Shown in pieces: positions 7,121 to 57,003 of a DNA stretch of 64,000 nucleotides. Made by a program: the position numbers and the translations under genes. Positions within the stretch are counted from its first letter, which is position 1. Every line of letters begins with the position of its first letter. Below the pieces are notes generated by a model, which was given only the letters and a program-made list of their open reading frames with translations, was not told the origin of the DNA and made no database searches. Where the stretch lies: contig JAOVFP010000003.1 of assembly GCA_025738555.1 (NCBI GenBank), positions 2,852,001-2,916,000 on the forward strand. Reading direction: 5' to 3'. The DNA comes from Cyathus striatus. Its lineage: Eukaryota; Basidiomycota; Agaricomycetes; Agaricales; Nidulariaceae.

Positions 7121-10100
7121 ATGACAAGGTTGGTCGAGATGGCAAACTTTTGCCACAAGAACGTCAGCGTCGCATGGACAACAATCTATGCTTGTTCTGC
7201 GGTAATCCGGGGCATCGCGCCAAAGAATGTCCCCGCTCTGCCTCTTCCGCGGCTAGAGCCCGGGCATCCGGAATATCCGCTTCGGCTCCTACGTCGGCTT
7301 CTGCGGGTCCCTCGACCCGCAGGTCCGCGCCTCTTTCCAACCCGGCTTCGGGTTCGAAAAATAGGGAGCGGTCCTCTGGACACCACACAAGCCGAGGACG
7401 CGTTGTTCCCCCTTGTGCGCAGCCGATGCAGGTAAGACTCAACGCTTCCGCTCTTTCCGACCCCAATGCCCTTCATATTCCACTTTGTAGTACCATCCAT
7501 GCTCTCCCTACACCCTGTACAGTTTCATATAGCGCTCTAGTCGATTCGGGTTCTACCCATTGTTTTATGGATTCATCTTTCGTTCGGACACATGCTATTA
7601 CTACCTCACCTACTCCACCTATCGCTCTCAGACTTTTCGATGGCACCACCAATCATGTTATAACCGAGTTCGTTACACTGCCTGTACTATTCCCTACCGG
7701 TGAATGTATTACAGTCGAACTCTATGTGACACCTCTTGATTCCGTGTGTTCTGCAGTCCTAGGATACAATTGGCTCACCCGCTTCAATCCGTTGATTGAC
7801 TGGGTATCGGGCTCATTAACATTCCGGACTCCAGACACTTCCGAGCAACTTCCGCTCAAATCCGGGATCTCGGAACCAGGTTCCGCTTCCGAGGATCCAT
7901 CTCCGGTCACCTCTGATGAGTCTCTGCCACCTCCTCCTAGCATTTCGCTAATAAATGGTGCCGCCTTCTCGCGTGCATGCCGTTTAGAGGGAGCACAGAC
8001 TTTCCGTATCCAGCTTGGTGCTGTCGCTTCCGCCGCTGCCCTCAATCCAGAGGAAGCTCCGGATCTCTCTTCAATACCGTCTGAGTATCACGAGTTTGCT
8101 GATGTATTTAGCAAGTCCCGGGCAGATACACTTGCCCCTCACCGTCCCTATGACTTAAAGATCAACCTAGAAGAAGGTGCTTCACCTCCTGTAGGTCGGA
8201 TCTATTCCCTTTCCCAATCCGAGCTTTCCGCTCTTCGGGAATTCATCGATGAACATATCCGGATCGGATTTATTCAACCTTCACGCTCTCCGCACGGAGC
8301 TCCCGTCCTTTTTGTCCGCAAGAAGGACGGATCGCTTCGGCTTTGTGTGGATTTCCGCGGGTTGAACGCTATTTCTAAAAAGGATCGTTATCCTTTGCCA
8401 CTCATTTCAGATTTGCTCGACAGTCCCCGTCGCGCCCGTATCTACACCAAGATCGACCTACGTCATGCGTACCACCTGGTCCGCATTGCCGAGGACGATG
8501 AATGGAAAACCGCTTTCCGGACTCGCTATGGATCCTTCGAATGGCTAGTCATGCCCTTCGGACTTTCCAATGCACCGCGGGTTTCAATGCTTCATGAACG
8601 ATGTTTTCAAAGACCTTCTTGATGTGTGCGTCATAGTTTATTTGGATGACATCCTTATATACTCTGATAACCTTGCGCAACATCGCCAACATGTCAGGGA
8701 AGTTTTGCGTCGACTCCGGAAGCACGGGTTGTACGCGCGCGCGGATAAGTGTGAGTTCCACTCGGAATCCGTGGAATATCTCGGATATATACTATCGCCC
8801 AACGGTCTCACCATGTCTCCAACAAAGGTGAAGACTATTCAAGAATGGCCGGAACCAAGGAAAGTAAAAGACATTCAATCCTTCCTTGGGTTCGCTAATT
8901 TCTATCGGCGTTTTATATACAACTATTCCGACATAGTTGTTCCGCTCACCCGCCTTACCCGGAAGGGTAATCCGTGGAACTTCTCGGAAAAATGCCGTTC
9001 CGCTTTCACTGAACTTAAGGACGCTTTCACGTCGGCACCCATTCTTACCCATTGGGTTCCCGACAAGCAGCTCATCGTGGAAACCGACGCTTCGGATTAC
9101 GCGTTGGCTGCTATCCTGTCTATAGTTTCCGATGATGGCGAGATTCACCCTATCGCTTTCCACTCACGAACCTTTACACCTCCCGAGTTAAACTACGACA
9201 CCCACGACAAGGAATTGCTTGCTATCTTCGAAGCATTCCAAGTCTGGCGTCATTACCTGGAAGGTTCCGGTTCACCCATCGATGTCGTCACAGACCACAA
9301 GAACTTGGAATACTTTTCCACAACCAAGATCTTGTCCCGACGACAAGCCCGATGGTCCGAGTATCTTTCCCAGTTCAATCTAGTGATCCGCTTTCGACCC
9401 GGAAAACTCGGGGCGAAGCCGGATGCTCTGACTAGACGATGGGACGTCTACCCTAAAGAGGGGGATAGCGACTACGCTAAGGTCAATCCGCATAACTATC
9501 GTCCAGTGTTCACCCAGGAACAGCTTATCACTTCTCTCCGAGCAACCTCACTTATTGTACCTGCTCTTCGCGCTAGTATCATCATGGACATTGAACAGTT
9601 ACATACTGACATATTATCAGCTCTCCCTAATGACCCGGTCGCAGTTATCCGAATGCGGACTCCCGAGAATCGTTGGACTGTAACCCCGGACGGTTTCCTC
9701 CGTCTAGATAACCGGATCTATGTTCCGGACTCCGGAACCCTTCGGCTTCGGGTTTTACAGTACAAACACGACCACCCGCTTTCAGGACACCTTGGACAGA
9801 ACAAGACCCTCGAGCTAATTCGACGCGAATATACTTGGCCGCTTATACGGACGTTTGTAAAGGACTATTGTAAGTCTTGTAATACTTGCATGCGTTCTAA
9901 ACCACAGCGCCACCGCCCGTACGGAACCCTGAAACAACTTCCGGTTCCCGGACGCCCATGGCATTCAATATCTATGGATTTCATAGATCAACTTCCAAAA
10001 TCATCGGCTTCCAAGTATGATTCTATACTCGTTATCGTGGATCGTTTCTCCAAGCAGTCTATCTTCATTCCCACTCATACCACTTGCTCTTCTTCCGACC

Positions 10101-11059
10101 TTGCGCTTCTATTTGTACTTCATGTCTTTTCCAAGTACGGAGTCCCGGAACACATCACTTCCGATCGTGGTTCCGAGTTTGTGTCACATTTCTTCCGCTC
10201 CCTCGGTACGGCCCTCGACATCACTTTACATTTCACCTCGGGTTATCATCCCGAAGGCGACGGCCAAACGGAACGCACAAACCAAACTCTGGAACAATAC
10301 CTTCGGGCCTACTGCAACTACCAGCAGGATAACTGGTGTGATCTTTTACCTCTTGCTGAATTTGCTTACAATAATGCACCGAGCGCAACCACAGGAATTT
10401 CACCGTTCTACGCAAACAAGGGTTATCACCCGAACCTTGCGATACATCCGGAACGTGATCTCACTTCCGCTCGTGCACGGCACTTCGCAGTAAACCTCGA
10501 GGAACTTCACGAGATGCTTCGGACCGAAATACTCAGTGCGCAGAAACGTTATCAAGCACCCGCCGATGCGCGTCGCAAACCCGCACCCGCATTCCCTGTC
10601 GGGACAAAGGTATACGTTAAAGCCGAGTACTTCCGGACAACCCGACCATCCCGGAAACTTGCAGAAAAGTTCCTAGGACCTTTTGAAGTCATCGCACTTG
10701 CCGGATCGCATTCGCGTACCTTGCGCCTTCCAGAACAATTTCGTGCAGTCCACCCAGTATTCCATGTATCCATGCTTGAACCCAATACTGAAAATACTAT
10801 CCCAGATCGCATTATTCCTCCACCACCACCTGTCCAGGTTGATGGTGATATTGAATACGAGGTCTCGGAAATCTTGGACTCTAAACTGGATCGTCGTTTG
10901 CGTTGCAAACTGAGGTACTATGTACGCTGGCTAGGGTATGAAGGGACCGATGAAGAGTTTTCATGGCTTCCAGCCACGGAACTGGAACACGCTACGGATA
11001 TCATTGAAGAGTTCCACTCCCGCTATCCGGATAAGCCCGGCCCTACTCCTATTTCTTAA
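7117..11059 (+). CDS. pol: Ty3 pol: zinc knuckle, PR, RT, RNase H, integrase, chromodomain (one frameshift)
   Basis: From 7117 the frame gives a CCHC knuckle (CLFCGNPGHRAKEC), an aspartic protease with VDSGSTHCF, and the first half of reverse transcriptase (VRKKDGSLRLCVDFRGLN, PFGLSNAP). It is shifted at about 8565 inside that conserved RT block. The second frame (8570-11059) continues with the YLDDILIYS catalytic motif, RNase H (VETDASDYALA, VVTDHKNLEYF), an HHCC zinc site (CKSCNTC), the integrase catalytic core (SMDFIDQLP, SDRGSEF, GQTERTNQTLEQYLR), and a C-terminal chromodomain (YYVRWLGY, WLPATELEHA). The polyprotein copies element RNA and integrates the cDNA; the chromodomain is expected to guide integration to chromatin. 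The net shift in the RT core should abolish activity unless suppressed, which makes this copy probably defective. Confidence 0.95.
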
Positions 11060-12447: not shown

Positions 12448-13211
12448 TGTTATATCCATGTCCGGATACATCGTGCCGGCGTTCCCACGTGACCTTCTAA
12501 CATACCCGGTCCGTTCCCGGAATGTACCCGCTTCGGGTTTACACTTCCCGACGTTCCCGCCCGGGAACGTACCCGAACCCGTCGGGTTTTCTATCGGGTA
12601 TCCCGGATACGTACTTTCTCTTATGACGGCCTCACCGCGTCATCATTCTATTACTCCTCCCTTCCATTCCTACTTATACGTTTCATTATGGCCTTTGTAG
12701 ATTAGTTCCTTATTCTTCATTCTGAGCGCGTCATTTGCGCCCCTACTCCGCTTTGCCAAGACTTCATTTCCTACTTACTCCTTTGACTTGTCCTTTGTAT
12801 AATACTTCTACATTCGTATCTACAGGTTCCTACTTAGTATAAGTAGTCTTCCAGTTGTAATAGGTAGTCTTCAGTATTCGTATCAACTCTGTACACTTTC
12901 TTCCTACTCTAAGTTCGAAACCCGCTCCGGGTTTTCCTTCGGGTTTCTCTCCCGCTACCTAGTGTAGTGGCGAAGCCTTCTCTTATACTCTAGAACGTCT
13001 TCCTTTGTTACATATCATCTTACTCGAAATACGAACCATTCCCTGGGGATATCCAGGCGGCGCAGCACACAAGCTGAAGCCACGGTTCTTTCCGCACTCC
13101 CGCTCTACGTTTCCGCACCCGTACTTACTTCGGGTTTCCGTTATAGTTCTCCCACACCCTCCGGGTGTCTTCGCAACCACTTCTAAGCAGGAAGAGAATC
13201 GGTACGTAACA
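12448..13211 (+). repeat. 3' LTR (764 bp)
   Basis: Same sequence as 5054-5818 except for one substitution and one single-base deletion near its start. It ends ACGTAACA followed by the TTCGG duplication, after which the TPR coding of NLR1 resumes. Confidence 0.95.
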
Positions 13212-13216
13212 TTCGG

Positions 13217-14960
13217 TAAGTACTTGCAAGATTGGCCATACTCACAAGAGTATCAGGATGCTCTTCACCAAGAACTCGAGTTCTCATTTCCAGCACTTGC
13301 TTCTCTAGCCTCTCTGCCTCCATGTATTTATCAGGAATTTGGTAAGTGCTTGCAAGATTGCCCATATTCACAAGAGTATCAGGATGCTCTTCATCAAGAA
13401 CTCCAGTTCTCATTTCCAGCACTTGCTTCACTATCCTATCTTCCATCATGTATTTACCAGCAGAAATTCGGTAAGTGCTTGCAAGATTGCTCATACTCAC
13501 AAGAGTATCAGGATGCTCTTCACCAAGAACCCTGGTTCTCATTTCTAGCACTTGCTTCCCTAGCCTCTCTGCCTCCATGTATTTACCAAGAATGTGGTAA
13601 GTGCTTGCAAGATTGCCCATACTCTCAAGAGTATAAGGATGCTCTTCACCAAAAATTCTAATACTCATTTCCAGCACCCGCTCCTCTAGCTTCCCTGCCT
13701 CTATGTATTTACCATGATCTTGGTAAGTGCTTGCAAGATTGCCCATACTCTCAAGAGTATGAGGATGCTTCTCACCAAGAACTCTGGTTCTCATTTCCAG
13801 CACCCGCTCATCTAGCTTCCCTGCCTCCCCATATTTACCAAGACTTCGGTAAGTGCTTGCAAGATTGCCCATACTCTCAAGAGTATGAGGATGCTCCTCA
13901 CCAAGTATTCTGGTACTCACTTCCAGCACCCGCTCCTCTAGCTTCCCTGCCTCCCTGTATTTACCATGATGTTGGTAAGTGCTTGCAAGATTGCCCATAC
14001 TCTCAAGAGTATGAGGATGCTCCTCACCAAGAATTCTGGTATTCACTTCTAGCACCCGCTCCTCTAACTTCCCTGCCTCCCTGTATTTACCATGATTTCT
14101 GTAAGTGCTTGCAAGATTGCTCATACTCTCAAGAGTGTGAGGATGCTCATCACCAAGAATTCTGGTACTCACTTCTAGCACCTGCTCCTGTAGCTTCCCT
14201 GCCTCCATGTATTTACCATGATCTTGGTAAGTACTTGCAAGGTTGCCCATGCTCTCAAGAGTATGAGGATGCTCCTCACCAAGAATTCTGGTTCTCATTT
14301 CCAGCACCTGCTCATCTAGCTTTCCTGCCTCCCTGTATTTACCAAGATTTTGGTAAGTGCTTGCAAGATTGTGCATACTCTCAAGAGTATGAGGGTGATC
14401 TTCACCAAGAATTCTAGTTCTCATTTCCAGCACCTGCTCCTGTAGCTTCCCTGCCTTTCTGTATTTACCAAGATTTTCATAAGTGCTTGCAAGATTGTGC
14501 ATACTCTCAAGAGTATGAGGGTGATCTTCACCAAGAATTCTAGTTCTCATTTCCAGCACCTGCTCCTGTAGCTTCTCAGCCTCCATGTATTTACCAAGAT
14601 TTCTGTAAGTGCTTGCAAGATTGCCCATACTCTTAAGTGTATGAGGATGCTCTTCACCAATAATGCTGGTTCTTATTACCAGCACTTGCTTCTCTAGCTT
14701 CTCTGCTTTCATGTATTTACCAAGATTTCTGTAAGTGTTTGCAAGGTTGGCCATACTCTCAAGAGTATCATGGTGCTCTTCACCAAGAACTCTGGTTCTG
14801 ATTTCCAGCACCCACTCCTCTAGCTTCTCTGCCTCTGTGTATTTACCAAGATTTCGATAAGTGATTGCAAAATTGGCAATACTCTCAAGAGTATGAGAAT
14901 GCTTTTCACCAAGAACTTGCTTTGTTACTTCTACCACAGTTTTATATATAGTCACTTCAG
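13217..14960 (-). repeat. 126-bp tandem array coding for the NLR1 TPRs
   Basis: About 13.5 units of 42 codons, continuing at 4468-5053 beyond the Ty3 insertion. Unit 12 is one codon longer. Variation concentrates after ASTY (Arg/Gln/His/Glu, then Asn/Asp/His/Ser/Ile). The long plus-strand frames across the array are shadows of this repetition. Confidence 0.9.
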
Positions 14961-16506
14961 CTTCATATTTGCCTGTTTTGTTTAATACTGCTGCAAATTT
15001 CTGTAGTATCATGTAATTACAATATTTATGATGATTTGGTAGAATTTTTAGTACATGAATTATAATGTCTTGGTTATATATATATTCCTCTGTAGTATCT
15101 GCATATACTATTGAAGCTGCCATTATTCTCCTGGTGTTTTCCATCCACTTTTGTCTATCTGATATCGATAATCTAAATTGGCACCAATCCTGAACTAGTG
15201 GATGAAGACTATGAGATCTCATATTCATATCTTTCTTTACTAATGAAAAAGATATAAGCATAGATATTGCATCATTAAACACTATTTCATTCCAATCTTC
15301 ATGTTCATCCATGCTGAGCAATGCTTTATTCAGATTCTGGAGATGATAAGTCATATTTCCATTTGAATATTCCTCAATTGTTGAATTGTAGTTCTGTGCT
15401 GCTCTCTGAAAGATGCTATGTGGAATTCTTTGATGATGCAAGAAGGCACAAATATTTATTATTACAATTGCATATTTAGCTGCACTTGCTCTTTCATTAT
15501 TTCTTACATCTTCAGACATTTGAATTATCTTCTGATAAGAGATTTCCCAGGTTCCATAAACTGTTTTGTTATACTTTGATGCACCTTTAAACTTTTCATT
15601 ATTCATTAATTTCTCTTTGTGATTTTTGTATGTATGCATAAATTCACTCATATTACAGCTTCCAGATAGTATGTATGCTCCTGCATGATCTATAGCTAAT
15701 GGAAGACCACAAAGCTCTGAAACAATCTCCTTTACTACATCTTGATGTATATGTGATTGCTTATCAAGTCCACTAGCTTTTAGAAGTAGTTGTGCCGCAG
15801 TGTCTTCACTCATCTCAGTCACTTCCATAGAGTGTTCATCTGTAGTAAGTCTTCTCAGTGTTGGGTTTCTACTTGTAATCAAAATATTTCCTTTATTCTT
15901 AGATGGGAAATATTTCTCGATATCTTCTGAAGCTCCATCAGCATTATCAAAAACCATCAACCATTTGCACTTCTGAGCAGATATCCAATTGAGAACCACA
16001 GCAGAAGAAAATTCCATGTAATGAGAGGCCAAAGGCATTTTATAAATATCTCTAAAACTTTGCATAATGCTTTCCTCTGAAGTGCTGTCAATCCAGAATG
16101 TATAGTCAAAACTGAACTGAAATTAGTTTCAATTTTGTAACAAAGGCACTGCACCTACTAGTCATCCATTTCATCCATGAATTTGAGACAGATTTGAGTT
16201 TTACCAATTCCTCCCATTCCATAGAGAAGAAAGTACTTTCTTTTCAAGTCATTTGGATCCTCAGACTTAAAATGCCTCATTAAAGCTTCAAGATATTTTT
16301 CTTGTCCTGTAAACATTCCACTTGTGCTTGGAGTTGTCTGAGTAATTGGGGATATTTGCCCATCTTTCATATTATTGAGCTGGAATTTAAGGTTTTGTTA
16401 TACTAGAACATATAGCTTTATTGAGACAAGTCACCTGTGTATTGATATACTTCTCAATCATGACAGGACGATTGATGACAACATTGCTTGCATTCGAAAA
16501 GGCCAT
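13217..16506 (-). pseudogene. NLR1, 5' part: NB-ARC plus TPRs 1-14 (broken by Ty3 insertion)
   Basis: This is the N-terminal portion of a STAND/NLR-like NB-ARC-TPR receptor. Exon 1 (16506-16435) encodes a short peptide starting MAFSNASNVVINRPVM. Intron 1 is 16434-16380. Exon 2 (16379-16159) carries the P-loop GMGGIGKTQ. Intron 2 is 16158-16112. Exon 3 starts at 16111 with FWIDS, then Walker B-like WLMVFDNAD, ITSRNP and the GLPLAID (GLPL) motif, then NKTVYGTWEIS, then 42-residue TPRs. The start is chosen by alignment with NLR2, which has the same first-exon length, splice phases and motif. The family acts in the cytosol as a nucleotide-gated oligomerising sensor, in fungi linked to non-self recognition and programmed cell death; the ligand is unknown. 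The frame runs into the Ty3 LTR within TPR 14. Removing the element and one target copy would leave an uninterrupted frame of about 1257 residues, so the insertion appears to be the only lesion. Confidence 0.88.
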
Positions 16507-17666: not shown

Positions 17667-18660
17667 AATCTAAGCGCCGTGCGCAGGATACACCCCGACT
17701 ATGAGAGCGCCCGCCCCGTTCAAACTTCCCAGCTGGCGTTTCTCCCGGTTCTGTTCCCCGTGTCAACTGGAGACCGTGATACTTAAGGGAAGAACCCTCG
17801 GCTTCATCAGTGTACGTCCACCGCTCTCTTCGACCAGTGAACCTGAAGCTGTACTGATGGTGGCAGGTATCATGTGCGCAGTACAAGGGCCAACTGGGGA
17901 TGGAGTCACTAGGGAATTTGGATAGTCTCTGTTGGAATACGAGAGACAGCCATATTCAAATGTCTCTATGATCCCCGCTCGCGCCACTATATGTTTCATG
18001 TATATTTTCCATTTTATTTTATGCCACTATGCTATTCCTTTTATGTACTACATATTTTGTATTTAAATCTGTACATTACGTTGTTTATAGTGTGCATTTA
18101 CCCCCAACAATATACGCCGTTACACGATTTTATTAGAGCCTTCAACAGTCTCTGTTTCCACCAAGTATGTCCTTTTCTTCGCTCTCCCTTCCCCTCCTGG
18201 TTCGCTCTTCTCTCTTTCCCTTGCCCTTCCTCTTCTCTCGCTCTGTCCTTATTTATCACGCACATGCTCTTCCCATTCTATAGCTCGCTTCTGTCTGCCT
18301 CTTCCTACCTCTCATTCCTCTTCTTTCCCTTACCCCAGAGTGGTGTTCGACAGCGAGGACATAGAAGCTCCACTGTTCACGTTGATAACCCCTCTCCTCT
18401 CGCCCCGCAACATTTGAACGTCGTGAAAGCCACCCCATTAAGGACAGCGAACGGATGCCAGGTGGAATGTGGTAGCTGATGATGTAGAGGAATGCATGAG
18501 AGCAGGGTGGCAGATTATCATGGAGTGTTCAAAGGTGGCGGTACTTAGTGGGGGGAGTGTAACAGTGAAGAAGCACTGTCAGAATCTATCCATTTGCCTC
18601 TGAAAGATGTTCAAATGCTATTCAGTTTGGTTAACACTCGATTCTATGCCTGTCAGCCCC
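17667..18660 (-). repeat. Dispersed repeat, internally rearranged inverted copy
   Basis: Read on the minus strand this matches 55216-57003: both share a CTTTCAGAGGCAAATGGATAG block and a TTAATGGGGTGGCTTTCACG block. They also share a GAGCGAAGAAAAGGAC block and the end block GTGTATCCTGCGCACGGCG. Relative to the other copy it lacks about 1 kb of interior and carries roughly 200 extra bases at about 17930-18150. No coding product is recognised, so the family could be a long terminal repeat or another non-autonomous element. Confidence 0.8.
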
Positions 18661-30530: not shown

Positions 30531-31997
30531 TATATAAAGAACGTTATCCCAGTACGAACATCAATGCCGATACTGGATTGAGAAAGTTCATATTATCCTT
30601 CAGGTCCTGCAACTGCAACTGCAGCAATACTCGCCGATGAGATATGAGTAGTGAGAGCGCCATCGTGCTCTCAAACAAAAACTCTTCAGCAGTGCTCCTT
30701 GGAGAGCGTGCGCCAGTACCAGCACTCCACCTATCGATAGCATCGGAAAGCTCAATAGTGCGATCGAATGTCCAACCCTTCCTGCGAGTTGCGACCAAGG
30801 CTCGATGGGATTTAACAGCTATCTTGAGTTAACTACTCCCTTTCTTTCACCTCTTTCCGGGTAAACTTGAGCCATGAAATCCTTTCGAGCCCAGCTGTAG
30901 GTCGGTACAATTACATTGCACGGGGGGCCGGCAAGGCCTGACCAAGAGATAAGCGTGCGTCAGCGCCCCTTGTCCGATTGAGTGTAGAGACAGAGACATT
31001 CCAGAGCCACGAGGGACATATCAGTGGGAGACCAGGAGGGATGGGGTGACTCCTGTCCTCGATCGTTCGCAGCAGAAGCTGAGTACGCAAATTGCGCTAT
31101 GAATAATAGGCCCCAGGATGAATGTCGACCCCTACGCAGGATTGAATGATCTCCTGCCATGCCTACAGCAGCTGAACCTGCGAGTAGCCACCCCAGAGAG
31201 CGTTAGAACTAGCACCCCTCCATCAATAGCATAGAAAGCTCAAGCTAGAACTCAATAGCGCGACTGAATGTCGAACACCCGTCTTCCACCTGCGAGCTTG
31301 TGCGTATATAGAGGGAGATTCTACAGTGGGCGGGGGTTCACAATCACGGATGAGTATGAACAGGTAGGTTCCTGATCGTCCCCAGCAGAAGCAATGTACG
31401 TAAAATGCATCTCGAAAGGAGCGGGGCCCCAGTACAAACATCAACGCCGGCACATTCTCCTGCTCTAGCCTCTCCTTCCTCAGTAGGTCTAGTGACGGCA
31501 ACAGCAGTGGCCAGACATAGTTAGTGAGAGCTCCATTGTACAGAACCAGTATCCCTACCATCGATAGTATTAGCTAAAGCTCGACCTAGAGCTCGACAGC
31601 GCAATTGAATTTCGAACACCTGTATCCGAAAGTTCTCTGGGCCCCCTGTCTTCCGCCTCTTTTCCAGTTAATTTGCGCGTGTCATCGTTTCGAGGATAAC
31701 GTTAAGTCGATGCGGTTGCGGTTGCACGGGGGGTCGCCGACTCGACAAGGTGTCCCTGAAGACGAAGAGACCGAAGTTGTTGTCAAGTTGTTGCAGACAA
31801 ACAGACGTATGGAAAGTCTAACAACCACGCTCAATTTCATCAAACGAAATTGAGTTCCGACACTCGGCATCACGGCTTTCTCGGTTAGATCTTTTATTCG
31901 GTAACGCCCACAGAGAATGTAATTCCATATCCTTGTATTACGTAAGCTAGTAAAACGGTATTAGCTTTAATGTACTTTTGTATAAATCAGTAAGGCC
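30531..31997. other. Degraded repeat DNA up to the TIR element
   Basis: Further diverged copies of the same core occur at about 31075 and 31380 (GCAGAAGC-GAGTACGCAAATTG-like). The remainder holds only short frames. It ends at the 9-bp target duplication of the RecQ/DUF6589 element. Confidence 0.45.
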
Positions 31998-32006
31998 GAC
32001 TAGCGG
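31998..32006. other. Target-site duplication, left copy (GACTAGCGG)
   Basis: Nine bases identical to 37682-37690, directly outside the TAGTCTCGG terminus. The next bases outward differ between the two sides, so nine is the full length. Confidence 0.85.
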
Positions 32007-32437
32007 TAGTCTCGGCTACCCAGCCGTTAGCGCTGGGCCAAATCCAAATTAGGATTTCCCACCGCCAACGTCTGGGACACTACCAACAGGTTTGGCAGGG
32101 GTTTGCGTTCGGTGTTCTCGGGCTTCGCGAGCCCTCATCTGCTGTCACATTTGATGGTTTTGTATATTAGTAATCGTATTAGTCACCTTTATGATGTAAT
32201 TTTGATGTAACTAATTACATTACATAATCGCATTGATTTCGATCGCATCACGTTGATTTGAATCACATTGCATTGATTTGAATCGCGTTGCAAGTGCATT
32301 GCATGCACATTGCACGCGCATGCAGTAGTTTGATAGGTTTGAGTCGCATTGCATGTGTATTCACCTCTATTATCATTCCACTCATCATCTCCCCCCCTCA
32401 TACCTCACTTTTGTTACATTCTGCTTGCTGAGCTATG
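32007..32437 (+). repeat. Left TIR (431 bp) with promoter/leader of the helicase gene
   Basis: It is inverted relative to 37262-37681 with a few substitutions and small indels. The tip carries two adjacent 6-bp-stem hairpins: CCCAGC/GCTGGG (32019-32037) and AAATCC/GGATTT (32040-32057). Further in lies an array of GATTTGAATC- and TTGCAT-type short repeats (about 32235-32360). The inverted identity runs up to TTGCTGAGCTATG, where ATG is the start codon of the helicase gene, so the TIR contains its whole 5' leader. Confidence 0.92.
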
Positions 32438-34439
32438 GATAATCTTGTAATCTGGCCTCCTCAACGCAACAAGAGAGCAAGAACTGATGAAGATGAGTCA
32501 CCACCAACAACTCCAACTCCAGTCCAGTTCCAGGCAGAGACTTCAAGCTTGATTTCACATATACCAACACTCAATAAACAAAATTTTCGAAATGGCTTTG
32601 TCTCTACCCCTAAAGCTCCCTCTTTCTCACCCTATGTTATTGCTTCCTCTGGAAAATCAAGGGAAAAGCATTAAATTTCCCCTCATCTCCAAGAGTTTTC
32701 TCTATACCAGATCTCTCTGCCAATGAATGGAACAATTTGGCACATTCTCATAACTTGCTTCAAGAAAATGAAAAGCTGCATGACTATCAAATTGAAGGTG
32801 CAAATAGGATACTGGAACATAAGTTAGATATCTGTGTGGTAGCCCCAACTGGTGCTGGAAAGTCAATGCTATGGATACTACCTCTCTTAGCACAGAAGAC
32901 TGGTATCTCACTTGTTATTGTCCCATTTACAAGCTTAGGTGTTCAAGGAGAGAATCGGTGTGTCACATTGAATATTTTATTAACACTATCCTTTCTAAGT
33001 TGATCTTTCTTCTCAGTCATAAGAATTCAATTATATCTAGTTCATTTCTCTGCTCAACAAACTCAAGTTTTGATATTCTCAAGAGACTAGCTCAGTGTGA
33101 TGAAATGCATGTTATATATATATGCCCAGAGATGCTTGAGACACCAAAAATAGCTGAGATACTTCATTCAGTCTCATTTAAAGATCGCCTTTCAGCTGTT
33201 TACATTGATGAAGCACATTCTATATATGAGAGTGTCTCATGGCGCCCCTCCTACACACGTTTACATCTCCTACGGCAAGTTCTGGGCCCTACAATTCCTT
33301 TGGTAGCATTATCTGCAACATTGCCAAGGCACTACCGTGATGTGCTTATTATTTATGCTGGTTTTTTCCCTGAGTATTATTTCATCAACCTGGGAAACTT
33401 TCGTTCAGAATTGAAAACTATTGTGAAGAGAATGCAGCACTCTGCTAGATCTTTTCTTGATTTAGGATTTGTAATAAATCTAGCTGAACAGCTATCGATG
33501 ATTATATATTGTGATGATATTGATATGCTTAGAGATATGTTCTGGTGGATACATAAACAGCTGTCCTCTGTTAATCTTCCTATTGCCTGGCTTGATATTT
33601 TACATGCTGGGCTGTCTGAGGAACATCAACGGCAGTGCATTACTGGCATGTTGAAAGGGCGTATCAAAATTTTATTGGGATCAGAGAAGATTGGTGCAGG
33701 TATGGACTTCCCAGGAGTTGGACTTGTTGTGCAATACCAATGTCGTGGACTGTCTATTGTCCGATGGGAACAGCGAAGAGGTAGAGGAGCCCGAAGCAAA
33801 GGATCAACTGCAACTGGAGTAATTCTAGTTGAAAAATCAATGACTGGTGATACATCAGACTCCCCAACTGTTAAGAATCCTAAATATGAGGATATGGGTC
33901 TTCTTGATCTTGTTCAGACTGATCAATGCTTACAACAGTGCACTGATAAGTGGCTTGAAAACCCACCTCGTAGTGATGATATTCCTTGCAACTCATGTAT
34001 GAACTGCAATCCCCAACTAACACTTCTCACAAACCACTATACTTTCATGCCTGAGAACATTTCAAAAGCACCTCAAATTAAAATCTCTGACAATAATGTG
34101 CAAAAGATTTATGATGCTCTCTTTCAGTGGAGGTGGGCAACATGGTTATCTGATTGGAAGGATGACTGGCCTGCCTATGGAGCAGAGTCTTTGGTATCAA
34201 AGCGGGATCTACTTGTGATTGCAAAGAAAGCCCTTACCATTAAGAATATTGATGATCTTTATGCAGTAACTTCCATTGTACATCTTGAGTCCCTTTCTCC
34301 TTCACTTCTTATTGCACTTCATTCTGCAGTACATCATGTTTGTGGTGATGAGTCCAAGTCTGAACCTGCTTTACAAGTGGAATTGGCTATTCCAACTGAG
34401 TTGAAATGGCAAATGACTCAGGGACCTGAAGCATTTTAA
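32435..34439 (+). CDS. RecQ-like DEAH helicase of the TIR element (one frameshift)
   Basis: A superfamily 2 helicase of RecQ type, an ATP-driven 3'-5' DNA unwinding enzyme in characterised relatives. Exon 1 is 32435-32957; the intron is 32958-33016 (GTGTGT...CTCAG) and exon 2 is 33017-34439. Motifs in order: APTGAGKSMLW (Walker A), VIVPFTSL (Ia), VYIDEAHSIYE (DEAH box), LSATLPRHYRDVL (III), LGSEKIGAGMDFPGV (V), WEQRRGRGARS (VI). A cysteine cluster follows (CLQQC...CNSCMNC), like the RecQ zinc-binding module. The first about 80 residues are basic and Ser/Pro-rich. A one-base shift near 32655, in an AAAA run, separates the start from the helicase frame; without it the two frames join. Host RecQ proteins are longer and do not sit inside TIRs. 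It converges on the DUF6589 gene and probably assists transposition. Confidence 0.88.
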
Positions 34440-34505
34440 TTTGGTAGTAAATGATAGTTATTTTTGTCAAATCTTGTACAGTAATACAATATATTCTATT
34501 GATAT

Positions 34506-37264
34506 CTAGTAAGTCTCATCACCATCATTGCCATTCAATCCAAATCTTTCAATATCATTCCAGTCTTCACCTTCTGTACCAAGTATAAATTCCACACCTG
34601 TGGTTAATTCTGTCTCATTTATTATTTCATCTTCCATTTCATCTGTGGTGATTGAAGAATCATTTGTGTGACATTCTCGATATCGTAACTTGTTTCTGGC
34701 CAAATGTTTTTCATGCCCACCATTCAAACCACCAACACGTTGTAAGCCATGGCGGTATAAATCAATTACTGTATGTGGAGATTTTTTATCTTGTGCAAAG
34801 TCAAAGATATTGTGAATTTGCATATGGCGAATGACAATAGAAATGTCAGTCTTCTGTTTCACATGATTGTGACGTTGATTAAGATCTTCTACTCCCATTT
34901 CCTCAAATACTGAGTCTGTTAAGTTTTGAACATATCCCATAGCTGGTACTATCTTCTCCAGTACAGATGGGGAAGCATTTGATCCATGTGCACGTTCTTT
35001 AATACGATCATTCAAATGTTCCACACGTAAGTCAGTGGGCTTAAAGTCTTCTTTATGTCCATGAGGATTAAAAAACATTCCGTTAAATGCAATATCAGCA
35101 TATAGGCTTGGCCAATCATGAATTATGTTGTGCAAAATCTCCATACATTCATTAGCATAGTTATAGCACCCTGCTGCATAATACATAGGCATCCAGAATT
35201 TAATCATTTGAAGAACCCGAGTTGGATGGCCTCGCTTTACTGCATCATGCATTTCTCGAAGCATCATTAAGTCATGAAACAAGAGTATTGAATGACCTGT
35301 TACTGTATCTCCTAAAAGTTTCTTTATGCTCAAGTCCTCAAGTCTATCCAGAGGTTGAACAAGTAAATCATCAACCACAACAGTTGCAATTCCTGTGAGT
35401 AATTTGGAGTCTGATTGAATAATACTTTCTAATTCATTCAATGATGATGTTTTTGTAACTGCCATGCTTGCACTGAGTGCAAGACCTTGAAGAATAACAT
35501 CCAAAAATCTCATCCATGCATAATAATTAATTTTGCGAGAATTAACTTCCATACGGTTTGGTAATAACTTGTGAAATGTTGACAATGAAACAGGATCCAT
35601 GTTTCCATCTGATCCCCAGAAATTTCCTGAAAGAGCTGAAATATAATTCATTTCATAATGCATTATACCACCAACCATACATAAACTTGAAAGGTGATCA
35701 AATGCATATGGAGAAAGATCAACAGCACACTGGTCTTGAGCTGCATGATCATGTGCAACAGTCAGACGATCTCCAAGTACAGTAAACATTGTATCCTCAA
35801 AGGTTTCCTTTGGTATTGCTAGTACCTTTCCAAAGTAATGCTCAAGAACAATCATATTTCCTTTTGTTGAGCCTTGCTCTTGATCAAATGTTGGAAGATA
35901 ATATTCTTCTGTTTTTAGTGGTTGAATAGCTTTTTGGTCCTCAAAATTTGGAACCAACTTCTGTAAGTAACTCAGGTTCTCCAGATTATCCACAATTATA
36001 TTTTGAACATGTATAATTGCATTCTTCCGGAATGCATCATTATCAGATTTAGAGGGAATGATGTTGGTGAGTGAAATACGTGAGTTAATCTTGTGACATG
36101 CTCCTGCCTTCTCCTTAAATGAAGGTATGGCTGTTATAGTTTTAGCATCTTGACCAGTAGGTGTTGGTAGAATAACCAGTAGTGCAGATACTTGATCATG
36201 AGTCTGAGATTTATGCAGAGCACTTGACTCCCAAGCATTTGATATCCAATTAAAATTATCATAAGGTAGCATCTTAATTTTTAATGAGTTGTTTGCAGCT
36301 TCCTTTGCCATTTGACTAGCACTCTGACTTAGTGACTTAATTCCTTTAATTTGAAACACATAGGATGCACAAATTCCAAATTTATTAAGCATTTGGATGA
36401 GACGTTTGGGCATGCAGTTATCCCAGAAGATCAATGAATTGATAGCTTGATGGTAATTTGTCTTCCGGCTCCGAAGATTTAGTGCTATTGAAGTAATCAT
36501 TATCCGACCCTATTCATTGTAAGTACTCTGTTTCTCTCTGAAGTAGAAACTACACATACAAAGTCCCTGTTCCTCCCAGAATCACTGTCCATACCTGGTG
36601 TGATGAAAGCCTTAATCAATTTTTGAAAATGTGGAGTGACTTCATCATACAAGGCTCCAAGATGTTTTACTTGAAATTTATTCACATTTGCAACATTGAT
36701 TTTAGCAATAGGAAGGCGAAGCTCCTCAGCTTTTTGAGTATGTGGTCCAGTAGATGCCCTATTGGTGAGGTGGCTGCTTTCACAAGCACATATAATGGCT
36801 GCCTTTTCCATAATCCATTCTACCATTGCATCATCTTTCAATCCACCTTGATGATTCCACCAATTTTCCATTATTTTGATATGTGAACCCCCAGCATAAA
36901 ATATTCCAGTTGATGCCTTTAGAGTTACATCATCTGATTTGAAAAGACCAATGAAAAATTCAGCCAATGAAAGGCATGAATACATATTTTGCATATGTGC
37001 AATAGTCCCAAGAATTTTCTGATCTAAAGTTGTTGGTGATCCTCACTCTTTTTTAACTTCAAAATCTTGATCAGTAGGATCATCATCCAGTAAATCAGAG
37101 CTTGGATTTAAAGCCAGACGATACTCATCACGTATACTTGGGTCAATAGGCAGTGGTGATGAAGGTGGTAGGCCAGGAGAGGTCATGGCTTCAGGTTCAC
37201 TGTAGTCTGAATGAAATTGCATCCCATCAGGGAGATAAACCCCAAATCTAGGCAACTTAGGCAT
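34506..37264 (-). CDS. DUF6589-type protein, presumed transposase of the TIR element (stop + frameshift)
   Basis: A large protein of roughly 900 residues read from 37264 to 34506. The N-terminal 70 residues are Pro/Ser/Asp-rich and acidic. Then QKILGTIAHMQNMYSCLSLA, RSRKTNYHQAINSLIFWDN, LNKFGICASY, then the family-like GDRLTVAHDHAAQDQ, FWGSDGNMDPVS, a long helical stretch FHDLMMLREMHDAVKRG, YNYANECMEIL, and NPHGHKEDFKPTDLRVEHLN. This order fits the fungal DUF6589 family as I know it. An in-frame TGA at 37043-37045 and a one-base shift near 36500 interrupt it; the TGA is consistent with CGA to TGA. No canonical intron explains either. It is probably the element's DNA-processing protein: the conserved GDRL, D and E positions could be an RNase H-like acidic centre, but this is conjecture. 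Confidence 0.75.
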
Positions 37265-37681
37265 AGCTCAGCAAGCAGAATGTAACAAAAGTGAGGTATG
37301 AGGGGGGGGGATGATGGGTGGAATGATAATAGAGGTGAATACACATGCAATGCGACTCAAACCTATCAAACTACTGCATGCGCATGCAATGCACTTGCAA
37401 TGTGATTCAAATCAATGCAATGTGATTCAAATCAACGCGATGCGATCGAAATCAATGCGATTATGTAATGTAATTAGTTACATCAAAATTACATCATAAA
37501 GGTGACTAATACGATTACTAATATACAAAACCATCAAATGTGACAGCAGATGAGGGCTCGTGAAGCCCGAGAACACCAAACGCAAACCCCTGCCAAACCT
37601 GTTGGTAGTGTCCCAGACGTTGGCGGTGGGAAATCCTAATTTGGATTTGGCCCAGCGCTAACGGCTGGGTAGCCGAGACTA
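37262..37681 (-). repeat. Right TIR (420 bp) with promoter/leader of the DUF6589 gene
   Basis: This is the inverted partner of 32007-32437. It includes the same two tip hairpins and short-repeat array, and ends inward at TTGCTGAGCTATG on the minus strand, the ATG being the DUF6589 start at 37264. The two element genes therefore begin with practically the same leader. Confidence 0.92.
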
Positions 37682-37690
37682 GACTAGCGG
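37682..37690. other. Target-site duplication, right copy (GACTAGCGG)
   Basis: Identical to 31998-32006. It defines the right boundary of the element at 37681. Confidence 0.85.
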
Positions 37691-38867
37691 CAAGGCCTGC
37701 TACCTGAAATTCTCTCTAATAGTTAAACATCATGATATGTTGCATCTGGTTTGAACTAATGTTCATAAAAATGACACATAAATTTATTGTTAATTGATTG
37801 ATTGTCAGTCCAATTCCAGTAATCCTTCGAATAATACCTGTAGTGCTTATTGATAATTTCACTATTGTCATGGCCCCAACATGGCCCAAGCCTCACAAAA
37901 TACTTGGGTTTTATTCCACAATGAATAAGGCCAATCAGTATAAAACTGACGAGATAAAATTTGTTGTCAAAAGATGGTCCTGAACATGGCATGAGATTTC
38001 AGCAATGCAAAAAGGAAACTTGTCGAAACAACATCACATGCATATGCATCATATTGAAACAATTCAGGAGGACAACTACACAACTAGTTACAGTGGAGTG
38101 ACTTTATCACGAGTAAAGTACTAATGCATATTCACAATATTATAAAACTGACAATATAACATAATACTTGAAAGTGATGATGCAACATAAAAAATACAAA
38201 GGAACTTTGATGATGTGGTGCCAGGAGTCTTAGCTCCCGCTCACTGCTGCATGTTTCTACTCTTATGAGCGATCAGTTTAGAGGCAGACCACTGTACATA
38301 AGGTATAGTGAGACATGGCATAGGATAGGCCTTGGATGATGATAATTGTGCATGAGAGTCCACTTCAGCCTATCCTGCTCACTACAGTAAGACCTGACAT
38401 AACCTTGTGAAAAGAATAGGCATTAGTACATGAAGCGACAATGAGAGCACTACTTAGCTGTACATCAACACAAAGAGGAGACCACACTTACCTCTGTAAT
38501 AGTACACAATGCCTATAGCCCTTCTCTCCTCCATCAATCTTTAGTACTTACTCTTTATTGACTGCAGCTGCTGGTATACACCATGCGAAGGGGAATCTTT
38601 AGAACCTAAAGTGATTTGGTCAAGATTTCGGTGCCCCATATCATCGAATTGGTGTGCATCGCAGTCTTCTCATGCTCATTTAAATGGCAGCCTATACATG
38701 TAGTCCGGAATGTCAAGACTTTGTATTATTGAGCAAACCCATAGTGTGGTGAAATAAAAAGGAGGTAACTCTGTGGAAGGACAACATTCACGTTGATGTT
38801 GTGGCTGGTTGGTATGTTTCTTAGTCTGGATGCAAAGTTCGAAAATTGTTAGAAAACATTAGATTCA
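37691..38867. other. Intergenic DNA between two DNA transposons
   Basis: No gene or repeat recognised. Short frames at 37756-37992 are open on both strands and show no features. Confidence 0.45.
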
Positions 38868-44883: not shown

Positions 44884-47800
44884 ATGCCGCTCGATAACGC
44901 ACGCCATTTAGTCATACAGAATGCTCATATGACTGAAAATATGAATATTGATAATCAGGTGTGTTATTGTATAACAGATGTCAACATTAATTCTTAAATA
45001 ACTCAAATCTTAACTTTTCTTCGCAGATTAACAACCATACATATGTAACCAACCAACCAAGGAGTAAATCACTTTCTCCAATTAGAAACACACCACCCAG
45101 CACCTCGCGAAACTTCACTGGGCAAAAAGAATATCTCAAAAAGCTACATGAGAAATTTGATGAAAATGATGCTTCTGGTCGAAAGATGTACCTTCTATAT
45201 GGAATGGGTGGTATTGGAAAAACACAAATCTGTTTAAAATTCAAAGATGAAGTGTCTCACTAGTGGGCATAATTCTTACAGATATGATAGTGAGATTCTC
45301 ACCACTTTTGTAGCTACTCATACATCTTTTGGATTGATACAACTTCAGAAAACACTGCCAATCAAAGCTTCAAGGATATTTATAAAACTTATGCAAATGA
45401 TATACTATCTGGGGTGTCTTATTCTGCTTTCATAGTTATGCAGTGGATGACAAACCTTAAAACTAAATGGCTCTTAATTTTTGACAATGCTGATAGCTCA
45501 CCAGAGCTAGTTGAAAAATTTCTACCAGCTGGAGATAAGGGCAATATCCTTATAACAAGTAGAAACCCAGAACATCAAAGAATTGTTTCTCCTGAAAATT
45601 CTTCAGAAGTGTTAGTAATGAGTGAAGATACAGCTGTAGAATTGCTACTTAAAGCTTCTGGTCTGAAAAAAAATCCTGAAAAAAATCTTGAAGTGGCCTC
45701 AGATATCTGTAAAGAATTATATTATCTTCCATTGGCTATTGATCAGGCTGGAGCATATATAAGTGCAGGAAAATGCAGTATTAATAAATATATTTCAGTC
45801 TACAGTAAATATAGGTCTAAACTAATGACCAACAAAAATTTCAGGGGAGCTTCAAAGTATAATAAGACAGTTTATGGAACATGGGAAATATCATTTGAAA
45901 AAATCCTGGAAATGGCTGATAATAAAGATGATGAAGAAAATGCAATGACAGCTAATTATGCTATAAAGCTAATAAAAATATGTGCTTTTCTGCATCATGA
46001 AAATATTTCTGATGAAATTTTTGAAAGAGCAGCAAAATATTACTCAGTTCATATAGAGCATTATAAAAATTGTGTTCATCCTGTTTTTCTTCCATTTATG
46101 GACACAACTCTACTTAATTTAGATGAGTCTAATGAATGGAATGAAATGCAATATAGAGAAAGTGTTAAAGTTCTATTGTCATTTTCATTGATTATAAGAA
46201 CCATAGATGGGGAGAAGTTTGGATTGCATCCCTTAGTGCAATCATGGTGTAAAGACCAACTAGTTTTGAAAGATAGAGATACATGGAATTGGAATACAAG
46301 AGGGATACTGTTGAGCTCTGTAACATGTGAAGAAGATTCCATTGAGTATATTTATCAAAATTCTATTCAACTTCATATTGTTAAAATTTTGTCTGATATA
46401 AATATTGATGATATATTGTATTATCATGACATTTATAATATTTCTGCAGATATCCTAAGAAAAAATGGAAAATATGATATAGAACTAAATTTAAGACATA
46501 GAATATTGCAGGAAAATAAAGTAATATATAAAAGGCTGGAAACTCAAATGCTGGAGATGAACATGAGAATACAGGAAAATGTGCACCCAGATACACTGAC
46601 AAGTATGGCTAACTTGGCATTGACACAGGGAAATCTTGGCAAATATATGGAAGCTGAAATGCTAGGAATTCAGATTCTGAAGATGAGAACCAGAATTCTG
46701 GGAAAAGAACATCCAGATACACTTACAAGTATAACCAACTTGGCTCTGACACAGGGAAATCTTGGGAAATTGATGGAGGCTGAAATGCTGGAAATTCAGG
46801 TTCTGGAGATGAGTACTAGAATTCGGGGAAAAGAGCACCCATATACACTCACAAGTATGGCTAACTTGGCACAAACACAGAGTAAACTTGGGAAATTTAT
46901 GCAGGCTGAAATGCTGGAAATTCAGGTTCTGGAGATGAGAACCAGAATTCTGGGGAAAGAGCACCCAGATACCCTGACAAGTATGGCTAACTTGGCACAG
47001 ACACAGGGAAATCTTGGGAAATATATGGAGGCTGAAATGCTGGAAATTCAGGTGCTGGGAATGAGAACAAGAATTCTAGGAAAAGAGCACCCATATACAT
47101 TGACAAGTATGGCTAACCTGGCACTTACCCAGGGAAATCTTAGGAAATTTATGGAAGCTGAAATGCTGGAACTTCAAGTGCTGGAGATGAGAACCAGAAT
47201 TCTGGGGAAAGATCACCCAGATACACTAACAAGTATGGCTAACCTGGCATTGGGACAGGGAAATCTTGGAAATTTTATGGAGGCTGAAATGCTGGAAATC
47301 CAGGTGGTGGAGATGAGTACCAGAATTCTGGGAAAAGAACATCCAGATACACTAACAAGTATGGCTAATCTGGCATGGACACAGGGAAAACTTGGAAAAT
47401 TTATGGAAGCTGAAATGATGGAAATTCAGGTGCTAGAGATAAGAACCAGAATTCTGGGAAAAGATCACCCAGATACACTCACAAGTATGGCTAGCCTGGC
47501 ATGGACACAGGGAAAACTTGGGAAATTTATGGATACTGAAATACTGGAAATTCAGGTGGTGGAAATGAGTACCAGAATTCTGGGAAAAGAGCACCCAGAT
47601 ACAGTTACAAGTATGGCTAACTTGGCACTTACCAAGGGAAAACTTGGGAGATTTATGGAAGCTGAAATGCTGGAAATTCAGGTACTAGAGATGAGAACCA
47701 GGATTCTGGGGAAAGAGAACCCATATACACTGACAAGTATGGCTAACCTGGCACTTACCCAGGGAAATCTTGGGAAATTTATGGAAGCTGAAATGATGGA

Positions 47801-49691
47801 AATTCAGGTGCTAGAGATAAGAACCAGAATTCTGGGAAAAGAGCACCCATATACACTGACAAGTATGGCTAACCTGGCACTTACCCAGGGAAATCTTGGG
47901 AAACTTATGGAAGCTGAAATACTGGAAATTCAGGTGGTAGAGATGAGAACCAGAATTCTGGGGAAAGAGCACCCAAATACACTCACAAGTATGGCTAATC
48001 TGGCATGGACACAGGGAAAACTTGGGAAATTTATGGAGGCTGAAATGCTAGGAATTCAGGTGCTGGAGATAAGAACCAGAATTCTAGGGAAAGATCACCC
48101 AGATACCCTGACAAGTATGGCTAACTTGGCACAGACACAGCAAAATTTTCAGAAATGTATGGAGGCTGAAATGCTGAAAATTCAGGTGCTGAGAATGACA
48201 AGTATGGCTAACCTGGCATTAGCACAGGGAAATCTTGGAAAATTTAGAGATGCTGAAATGCTGGAAATTCAGATTGTGGAAATGAATACCAGAATTCTGG
48301 GGAAAGAACACCCAGATACACTAACAAGTATAGCTAATCTGGCATGGACACAGGGGAATCTTGGGAAATTTGTAGAGGCTGAAATGCTCAAAATTCAGGT
48401 GCTGGAGATAAGATCCAGAATTCTGGGGAGAGAGCACCCAGATACCCTGACAAGTATGGCTAACCTGGCATGGACACAGGGAAATCTTGGGAAATTTATG
48501 GAAGCTGAAATGCTAGAAATTCAGTTGCTGGAGATAAGAATAAGAATTCTTGGGAAAGAGCACTCAGATACACTAACAAGTATGGCTAATCTGGCATGGA
48601 CACAGGGAAATCTTGCAAAATTTATGGAAGCTGAAATGTTGGAAATTCAGGTGGTGGAGATGAGAACCAGAATTCTGGGGAAAGAGCACCCAGGTACCCT
48701 GACAAGTATGGCCAACCTGGCATGGACACAGAGAAATCTGGGGAAATTTATAGAAGCTGAAATGCTAGAAGTTCAAGTGCTGGAGATGAGAACCAGAATT
48801 CTAGGAAAAGATCACCCAGATACACTGACAAGTATGGCTAACCTGGCACAGACACAGAGAAATCTTGGGAAATGTGTGGAAGCTGAAATGGTGGAAATTT
48901 GGGTGGTGGAGATGAGTACTAGAATTCTAGGAAGAGAGCATCCATATACACTGACAGATATGGCTAACTTGGCACTTACCCAGGGAAATCTCAGGAAATT
49001 GATGGAGGCTGAAATACTGGAAATTCAGTTGCTGGAGATGAGAACCAGAATTCTGGAGAAAGAGCACCAAGATGCACTGACAAGTATGGCTAACCTGGCA
49101 TTAGCACAGGGAAATCTTGAAAAATTTATTGAAGCTGAAATGCTCGAAATTCAGGTGCTGGAGATGAGTACCAGAGTTCTGGGAAAAGAGCACCCAGATA
49201 CACTGACAAGTATGGCTAATTTAGCATGGACACAGGGAAATCTTGGGAAATATATGGAGGCTGAAATGCTTGAAATTCAGGTGCTGGAGATGAAAACCAG
49301 AATTCTGGGGAAAGATCACCCAGATACACTAACAAGTATGGCTAACTTGGCACTTACACAGGGAAACCTTGGGAAATTTATGGAAGCTGAAATGCTGGAA
49401 ATTCAGGTGGTGGAGATGAGAACCAGAATTCTGGGGAAAGAGCACCTAGATACACTAACAAGTGTAGCTAATCTGGCATGGACACAGGGAAAACTTGGGA
49501 AATTTATGGAGGCTGAAATGCTGCAAAATCAGGTGCTGGAGATGAAAACCAGAATTCTAGGGAAAGATCACACAGATACCCTGACAAATATGGCTCACTT
49601 GGCACAGACACAGCAAAATCTTGTGAGACACAAGGAAATCTTGGGAAATTTACAGAAGCTGAAATGGTGGAAATTCAGGTGGTGGAGATGA
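44884..49691 (+). CDS. NLR2: NB-ARC protein with 24 full TPRs
   Basis: A STAND/NLR-like receptor of about 1562 residues. Exon 1 (44884-44958) starts MPLDNARHLVIQNAHM; intron 44959-45026; exon 2 (45027-45262) has FTGQKEYL and the P-loop GMGGIGKTQ; intron 45263-45313; exon 3 (45314-49691) starts YSYIFWIDTTSE. Exon 3 then has Walker B-like WLLIFDNAD, ILITSRNP, the GLPL-equivalent YLPLAIDQAGAY, NKTVYGTWEISFEKI, and a winged-helix-like stretch with LHPLVQSWC. From about 46560 there are 24 near-identical 42-residue TPRs (HPDTLTSMANLA, GNLGKFMEAEMLEIQVLEM), one shortened (unit 13), plus a frame-shifted 25th. By family, ligand binding by the TPRs opens the NB-ARC switch and drives oligomerisation. 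Both splice phases match NLR1. Apart from the degenerate last repeat the gene looks functional. Confidence 0.92.
46561..49690 (+). repeat. 126-bp tandem array coding for the NLR2 TPRs
   Basis: Twenty-four full units plus a degenerate last one, with very similar DNA sequence. Differences cluster at a few codons (Leu/Trp/Gln after NLA; Val/Leu, Met/Ile and Arg/Ser/Lys in the second helix). The final unit loses frame after TQQNLV because of a small insertion near 49625; the same repeat pattern continues in another frame until the stop. Confidence 0.9.
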
Positions 49692-55215: not shown

Positions 55216-57003
55216 GGCCGACAGGTGTATTAGAATCGGGTGTTGACCAAACCGAATAGCATTTGAACATCTTTCAGAGGCAAATGGATAGATTCTGACG
55301 GTGCTTCTTCACTGTTACACTCCCCTCACTAAGTACCGCCACCTTCGAACACTCCATGATGATCCGCCGCCCCTCTACGCTATCAATTACTGTCGTCTGC
55401 CTGGCATCCGTCGGCTGTCCTTAATGGGGTGGCTTTCACGACGTTCAAATGTTGCGGGGCGAGAGGAGAGGGGCTATCAACGTGAACAGTGGAGTCCCGA
55501 TGTCCTCGCTGTCGACCACCACTCTACCATTGCCTCCCGTCGCAACGTCAAGCTTTCCATACTTTCCATCGTATTCAAAACAATGTGGTGTGTTTCACTA
55601 CCATTCGCTAGCGAAAGGGCAATGAGGCATAGCTTTGTTTCGACGTGTTGTATGCCAGTAGGACGAGAACAAACTGGGTATTTGACCATTTGATATTGTG
55701 ATGCGCCGTCGGGTGCTTTCTCTCCTCCTCTGCCGCGCACAGGCCCTCTATCCGAAAGGAGCTTGCACTGTGTCTGTGGGACAGGTAAATAAATATTTTG
55801 AACAAAAGCGCCATAGAAGATAGAAAGCGGAGAAGAGGGGGAGGGGGGAAAGAAGTGTGAACAGCACTGAAGAAAGGACGGAGCTGGGGTTCTAGAATAC
55901 GAGGAAAGTGGACGAGAAGAGAACGGAGAGATGAAGGGAACTTCTTCGAGGGGACGCATGGGACGTAAGTGGGAAGGCGGAACAGGGACTAGGGCGGGGA
56001 CATGGGCGAGGAGAGGGACGGGAACGAGAAAGAGGTGGAGAACGAGGAGGATAAGATTGTAGTGAATGCTATGGAGAAGAAAACGAGGAAGGAGTGGAGT
56101 ACGAACAAAGTACACGAACAAACGGAACAAAGAGAACGAGTGTGAAACAGGAAGGAAAAACGAAGGGAAGAATGAAACCCACCAAACGCAACTATAGCAT
56201 ATTTCGTTCATCATAGTTCATCATACATAGCTCCTCCCCACCAACGTCCACGCTTCAGCTCCACAGCTCTGACATCTTCCACAGTGCAAAGAAACACGCG
56301 TATTCGTTGGCTTCCGCTCAATTTTGCCTGAACGACAAACGGGAAGAACGAGATCTATGAGGGAGGAGGCGACGTCCGGGAGGACGACGAGCGCAATGAT
56401 ATTAGAAGGATGTCACTGTTTGGCGTGTCAGCATGACGGGAAGATACGCGTAACACAAGACATGGGGGAGAGTGAAGGTATAGAGAACGAAGGTAGATGG
56501 CGGGAACATGGGGAGGGAGGGGATAAGGGAAAGAGGAGGAGGATGAGAGGTATGAAGACGTATACAAAAGCGAGCTATAGGATGGGAGAGGATGAGAGAG
56601 GATGTGCGCGAGAAAGAAAGACAGAGCGAGAGAAGAAGAAGGGTAGGAGAGAGAGAGAAGAGCGAACTGGGAGGGGGAGGGAGAGCGAAGAAAAGGACGT
56701 ACTTGGTGGAAACAGAGCTAGTGTACGATCACTATCCCAATTCCCTAGCGACTCCATCCCAAGTTGGCCGTTGCACTGCGCACATGCTAGCTGCCACCAT
56801 CAGTACGACTTCAAGTCCACTGGTTGAAGAGAGCGGTGGACGTACACAGATGAATCCGAGGCTTCTTCCCGTAAGTATCATGGTCTCCAGTTGAAAGAGC
56901 GGCAGGACACGGGGTACAGAACCGGGAGAAATGCCAGCTGGGAAGTTTGAACGGGGCGGGGCGGGTGCGCTCTCAGTCGGGGTGTATCCTGCGCACGGCG
57001 CTT
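55216..57003 (+). repeat. Dispersed repeat, longest copy in the window
   Basis: About 1.79 kb, matching 17667-18660 in inverted orientation at both ends and 1-285 over 55750-56010. Blocks include TTCAGAGGCAAATGGATAG near the left end and GTGTATCCTGCGCACGGCG at the right end. Purine-rich stretches (GAGAGAGAGAAGAGCGAAC-like) produce long spurious frames. No target duplication or coding domain was found. It could be a solo long terminal repeat or a non-autonomous element. Confidence 0.8.

Follow-up and report, generated by a model that had tools for sequence, protein, structure and literature searches.

A two-gene DNA transposon of Cyathus striatus, probably of the AcademH type, that pairs a DUF6589 protein with a RecQ-type helicase

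Structure of the Element and Its Genes

The 64,000-nucleotide stretch of Cyathus striatus contig JAOVFP010000003.1 analysed here (positions 2,852,001 to 2,916,000 of that contig; hereafter, the window) contains, at 32007-37681, an element of 5,675 bp in which two convergent genes lie between long terminal inverted repeats (TIRs): a RecQ-type helicase gene on the plus strand (32435-34439) and, on the minus strand (34506-37264), a gene of the DUF6589 family (PF20231). An earlier note, made from the letters of this DNA alone, had described inverted repeats of about 425 bp, a 9-bp target duplication and exactly this pair of genes, and all three descriptions are borne out. The helicase-side TIR (32007-32437, plus strand) and the transposase-side TIR (37262-37681, minus strand) both start with the tip TAGTCTCGGCTACCC and are 95.8% identical over the 431 columns of a gapped alignment; aligned without gaps, the arms reach 98% between 32007-32310 and 37378-37681, and 95% between 32297-32442 and 37257-37402. 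The target-site duplication (TSD), GACTAGCGG, stands at 31998-32006 and again at 37682-37690, and both copies adjoin the identical 15-bp tips without a gap.

Each TIR carries about three units of a 20-bp tandem repeat in a subterminal position (32227-32292 on the plus strand in the left TIR; 37396-37458 on the minus strand in the right TIR), a possible binding array for the transposase. The start codon of each gene lies in the inner end of its own TIR, and the leader TGCTGAGCTATG is found upstream of both start codons in five copies of the element, namely C3 (the window copy), C7, C4, C12 and C1, so that the TIR probably serves as shared promoter and leader of the helicase and transposase genes.

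Each gene has one small intron, deduced from the GT..AG borders and the reading frames. The helicase gene consists of exon 1 (32435-32957), an intron of 59 nt (32958-33016) and exon 2 (33017-34439), and its product matches the Pfam families DEAD and Helicase_C. Motif I (Walker A), APTGAGKS, can be read at 32842-32865 (plus strand) in the DEAD-domain match, and motif II, DEAH, which is invariant in the helicase alignment, at 33207-33218 (plus strand). Past the helicase core, a cysteine cluster of the form C-x15-C-x2-C-x2-C (33939-34007, plus strand), with one cysteine invariant in the alignment and two nearly so, resembles the RecQ zinc-binding pattern. The best sequence matches in the PDB are RECQ5, BLM and RecQ, and members of the RecQ family occupy all 50 rows shown by Foldseek; the score against TIGR00614 falls under the curated cut-off.

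The DUF6589 gene, of 902 codons, runs from exon 1 (37264-36560) through an intron of 50 nt (36559-36510) to exon 2 (36509-34506), and matches PF20231 with an E-value of 1.5e-86. Both genes are damaged in the window copy: exon 1 of the helicase gene lacks 1 bp (within 32653-32669) that the C12, C1 and C7 copies possess, which breaks the frame, and an in-frame TGA stands at transposase codon 74 (37045-37043). The TGA is shared by C12 and absent from C1 and C7, in which the 902-codon transposase frame is open. Since C1 also has an intact helicase frame (668 codons), there is at least one copy with both frames open.

Copies, Target Sites and Mobility

The sequence of the left TIR has 53 matches in the 107-Mb genome, and full-length copies are found on C12, C1 and C7 with 97.6%, 97.1% and 90.6% identity to the window copy, respectively. 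The search for further copies that the earlier note had proposed thus recovered the same tips elsewhere, with 9-bp duplications of their own that differ from site to site. When the three lineages of the family described below are taken together, an exact 9-bp TSD flanks 23 of the 30 copies with both tips. In lineage 1, that of the window, this holds for six of seven full copies (C3, C1, C4, C7, C5 and C19; not C12) and for 7/10 short ones, which reach down to 184 bp. Ten short lineage-1 copies were fetched, nine of them two-tipped, with seven exact TSDs, one TSD with a single mismatch and one slipped A/G run; the flanks of the tenth two-tipped short copy (C7:1111987-1114312) are unmatched. The count covers copies with two recognizable tips, and therefore leaves aside C14:1995930-2001499, which has a damaged left tip and lacks a TSD; C6:5535686, whose right tip was not recovered; a lineage-2 copy on C2 that has lost its ends; and the lineage-1 copies with at most one tip in the fetched stretch (C18, C10, C2, C13, C1:8181620 and C14:3275607).

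Paralogous empty sites were sought with a query of 1,114 bases made of six joined flank pairs, and were found for four of the six insertions: the window copy and those on C4, C7 and C19. The closest, C6:5580867-5580992, matches the joined window flanks at 123 of 125 bases and holds a single GACTAGCGG. Among the 41 matches listed, there was no empty site for the C1 and C5 insertions, the right flank of the latter extending only 14 bases past the TSD. The window element itself is inserted in another dispersed repeat (31982-32006 and 37691-37790), of which the C6 and C19 copies act as empty sites for it.

The element is thus confirmed as a true mobile DNA element and not a chance arrangement, because copies are spread genome-wide, each exact site with a separate 9-bp duplication, and the C6 site preserves the unoccupied target. 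That two unrelated host genes came to lie between inverted repeats, by chance or by segmental duplication, might be argued from the C12 and C13 copies, which lack matching flanks; set against the site-specific 9-mers, the empty sites, the short TIR-only copies and the recurrence of the same gene pair in diverged lineages, it is vanishingly improbable. Homologous gene pairs confined to positions without TIRs, which the earlier note had named as evidence to the contrary, were not what was encountered.

Conservation of the Gene Pair

PF20231 gives 105 matches in the genome, merged into 93 loci, and two further lineages with the same anatomy encode DUF6589 proteins only 22-27% identical to that of the window. 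Lineage 2 is represented by C12:2875363-2881934, with tips TAGACCGGTAGCCGG and the TSD GGTACTAGT; eight of its ten short copies have an exact 9-bp TSD, one has a single mismatch and one has six. Lineage 3 is represented by C4:4216637-4222579, with tips TAGTCCGGAAGCCG and the TSD CCCGGAGTC, and by a copy on C13 that is 99.8% identical and has no TSD. The helicase is found in all three lineages. A helicase match lies within 10 kb of DUF6589 at 52 of the 93 loci, in convergent orientation at 51 of these 52, against an expectation of about 0.012 per locus; twelve of the paired loci belong to the window lineage (at least 52% identity) and 40 are independent of it. The other 41 DUF6589 loci gave no helicase match to the single query used, with 83 of 119 candidates scored, so that absence of the helicase there is not established. 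Conversely, 15 of the 66 helicase loci stand without a DUF6589 match inside 10 kb, and at least two of them (C12:3378346 and C4:2403444) are helicase remnants within short copies.

Among the DUF6589 homologues listed (120 of 125), the closest named one is from Cyathus striatus, and the named genera with homologues of either protein are Agaricomycetes. In Arthromyces matolae and Candolleomyces aberdarensis, helicase and DUF6589 genes bear consecutive locus tags. As an indirect sign of linkage, 21 of 46 close helicase homologues sit on contigs equal in size to contigs with DUF6589 matches (16/30 for contigs longer than 8 kb). A control search for PF20231 in 14 well-known genomes gave a match in none.

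Both genes are under purifying selection and have been kept together across diverged lineages. At synonymous divergence (dS) of 0.46-0.60, DUF6589 has a ratio of nonsynonymous to synonymous change (dN/dS) of 0.18-0.24 and the helicase one of 0.19-0.22; at dS near 0.19, the values are 0.23-0.27 and 0.33-0.38, respectively; and among the most recent copies they rise to 0.5-1.3 and 0.5-0.6, deeper copy pairs being saturated. This pattern fits elements that need both genes during spread and decay once inserted.

A Putative DDE Transposase

DUF6589 is the sole Pfam match of the transposase frames at E ≤ 1. A search of the PDB with the DUF6589 profile by sequence gave no match. The structure model predicts a DDE-transposase fold, with Hermes and the P element ranking over ISCth4. 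Three acidic residues, numbered in the open reading frame window:34509-36500:-, are candidates for the catalytic triad. D81 (36258-36260, minus strand) is present in 45 of 46 relatives and in all ten sequences of the three lineages; D244 (35769-35771, minus strand), in all 44 relatives with a residue there and again in 10/10; and E494 (35019-35021, minus strand), in 45 of 46 relatives and in all nine covering sequences of the three lineages. Taken together, the predicted fold and these putative catalytic positions support the DUF6589 protein as the transposase of the element. It is this assignment that is new, the family being classed as one of unknown function.

Long TIRs, TSDs of about 9 bp and short copies reduced to the TIRs are usual in Mutator-like elements (MULEs), and the window element shares all three, so a MULE with a captured RecQ helicase has to be weighed. 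However, the MULE transposase domain (pfam10551; PMC8290104) or any other MULE domain is missing from the matches to the transposase frames at E ≤ 1, the ranking of Hermes and the P element above ISCth4 points elsewhere, and the presence of the helicase in all three lineages argues against a single capture by a MULE; this origin is therefore very unlikely. Helitrons, which have neither TIRs nor TSDs, were rejected in view of the long TIRs and TSDs found here. The TSDs also set the window element apart from hAT, to which Hermes belongs: according to PMC12730594, hAT elements have TSDs that are usually of 8 bp, and also of 5, 6 or 7 bp, and Zisupton has TSDs of 8 bp, whereas those observed here are of 9 bp. 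Both hAT and Zisupton/KDZ were rejected on this difference.

Classification within the Known DNA Transposons

Kolobok elements duplicate TTAA at their targets, and the TSDs of the window family are of 9 bp and varied. This matters for KolobokH, another fungal DNA transposon lineage, which according to PMC9587614 is found only in fungi and encodes a RecQ helicase, placed downstream of the transposase domain; in the window element the helicase is a separate convergent gene. KolobokH was rejected on the TSDs, and this identity is extremely unlikely despite the shared host kingdom and helicase.

A much closer likeness is offered by AcademH, a lineage of the Academ superfamily (Kojima 2020, as cited in PMC10045372, PMC10799480 and PMC12210899). 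The published accounts place AcademH in Basidiomycota, Ascomycota and Mucoromycota (PMC10799480), and also, from a title cited in PMC10045372, in animals; they give it TSDs of 9 or 10 bp, as opposed to 3 or 4 bp in AcademX, and tie this difference to the presence of a helicase versus a nuclease (PMC10045372, 2023). A 2013 paper names "RecQ Helicase in Academ" as one of several accessory proteins known from earlier reports (PMC3627910). The window element has the 9-bp TSDs, the RecQ-type helicase and the basidiomycete host, and no difference from AcademH was found in a comparison made by published description, as distinct from transposase sequence, tips or gene order. AcademX, which belongs to the same superfamily, was rejected on its shorter TSDs and because the scanned frames contain no nuclease domain. 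On the agreement in TSD length, helicase and host phylum, the element is filed as a probable member of AcademH, and we put the probability that it is a two-gene, TIR-bounded DNA transposon of this type at roughly 0.8. Of the "undescribed two-component transposon" of the earlier note, the DUF6589 transposase and its RecQ-type helicase partner thus stand, while "undescribed" has to be dropped in view of PMC3627910 and PMC10045372.

The same likeness could have arisen in a separate superfamily with a non-Academ DDE transposase, DUF6589, that gained its RecQ helicase and 9-bp TSDs independently. The AcademH label was assigned by published description; neither DUF6589 nor PF20231 is mentioned in the transposon literature searched, and the single text match to PF20231 was an optics paper; and the best 120 of 335 lineage-3 homologues are fungal or unnamed proteins with no named animal among them, even though the title cited above reports AcademH from animals. 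Against this stand the TSD length, the kind of helicase and the presence in Basidiomycota, all as printed for AcademH, and independent gain is accordingly unlikely. Multicopy RecQ-like helicase genes are also known from fungal telomeres; as described in PMC4522978, these are subtelomeric, whereas the window family has TIRs, TSDs and a transposase gene.

Proposed Mechanism and Role of the Helicase

For a transposon of AcademH type, the DUF6589 protein would bind the long TIRs, probably at the subterminal 20-bp repeats, and cut at the TAG tips with its putative D81-D244-E494 site. The ends would then be joined to target strands 9 bp apart, gap filling giving the 9-bp duplication, and the RecQ helicase may assist by opening the ends, or by resolving or repairing the donor or the strand-transfer intermediate. 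Short non-autonomous copies would be moved in trans.

Within an element the two TIR arms are 93.2-100% identical (five elements), whereas between the subfamilies C3/C12/C1, C7 and C4 identity is only 73.3-85.9%; for C3, C12 and C1, all of them recent copies, the within- and between-element values overlap. The arms must therefore have been re-equalised in each subfamily, which points to a recurrent process, either gene conversion or a templated transposition step. A more speculative proposal, rather doubtful as it stands, makes the RecQ helicase an obligate partner that drives templated recopying of one TIR from the other and/or regards DUF6589/RecQ elements as a superfamily distinct from Academ; such recopying, if true, would account for the contrast between 93-100% and 73-86% identity.

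The assignment suggests what a Pfam family might do whose many members in mushroom genomes are annotated as hypothetical protein. In addition, the clear boundaries and short copies of this element family make it suitable for asking what role a RecQ helicase has for a DDE transposase, and the link of helicase or nuclease to TSDs of 9-10 or 3-4 bp, as put forward in PMC10045372, is open to direct test in this family.

Neighbouring Features of the Window

Elsewhere in the window, a 1,425-aa frame (45414-49691, plus strand) consists mostly of 42-aa tetratricopeptide repeats (TPRs) in 126-bp tandem units (TPR_10, E 2e-198), matches DUF7779 weakly and looks like a fungal NLR-type receptor. A second NLR-like gene, a 960-aa frame at 13183-16065 (minus strand), has NB-ARC (E 4.1e-8) and DUF7779 matches and 42-aa TPR repeats related to the stretch 4548-5099. 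Across three overlapping frames, the region 6347-11059 (plus strand) matches Gag, protease, reverse transcriptase, RNase H, integrase and a chromodomain, and resembles a long-terminal-repeat retrotransposon. A 754-aa frame at 61603-63867 (minus strand) matches PIF1-like helicases (E 5.6e-19) and is perhaps a Helitron remnant. Finally, 18337-18646 and 55231-55525 form inverted repeat arms, 87-94% complementary and 37 kb apart, that belong to another dispersed repeat.
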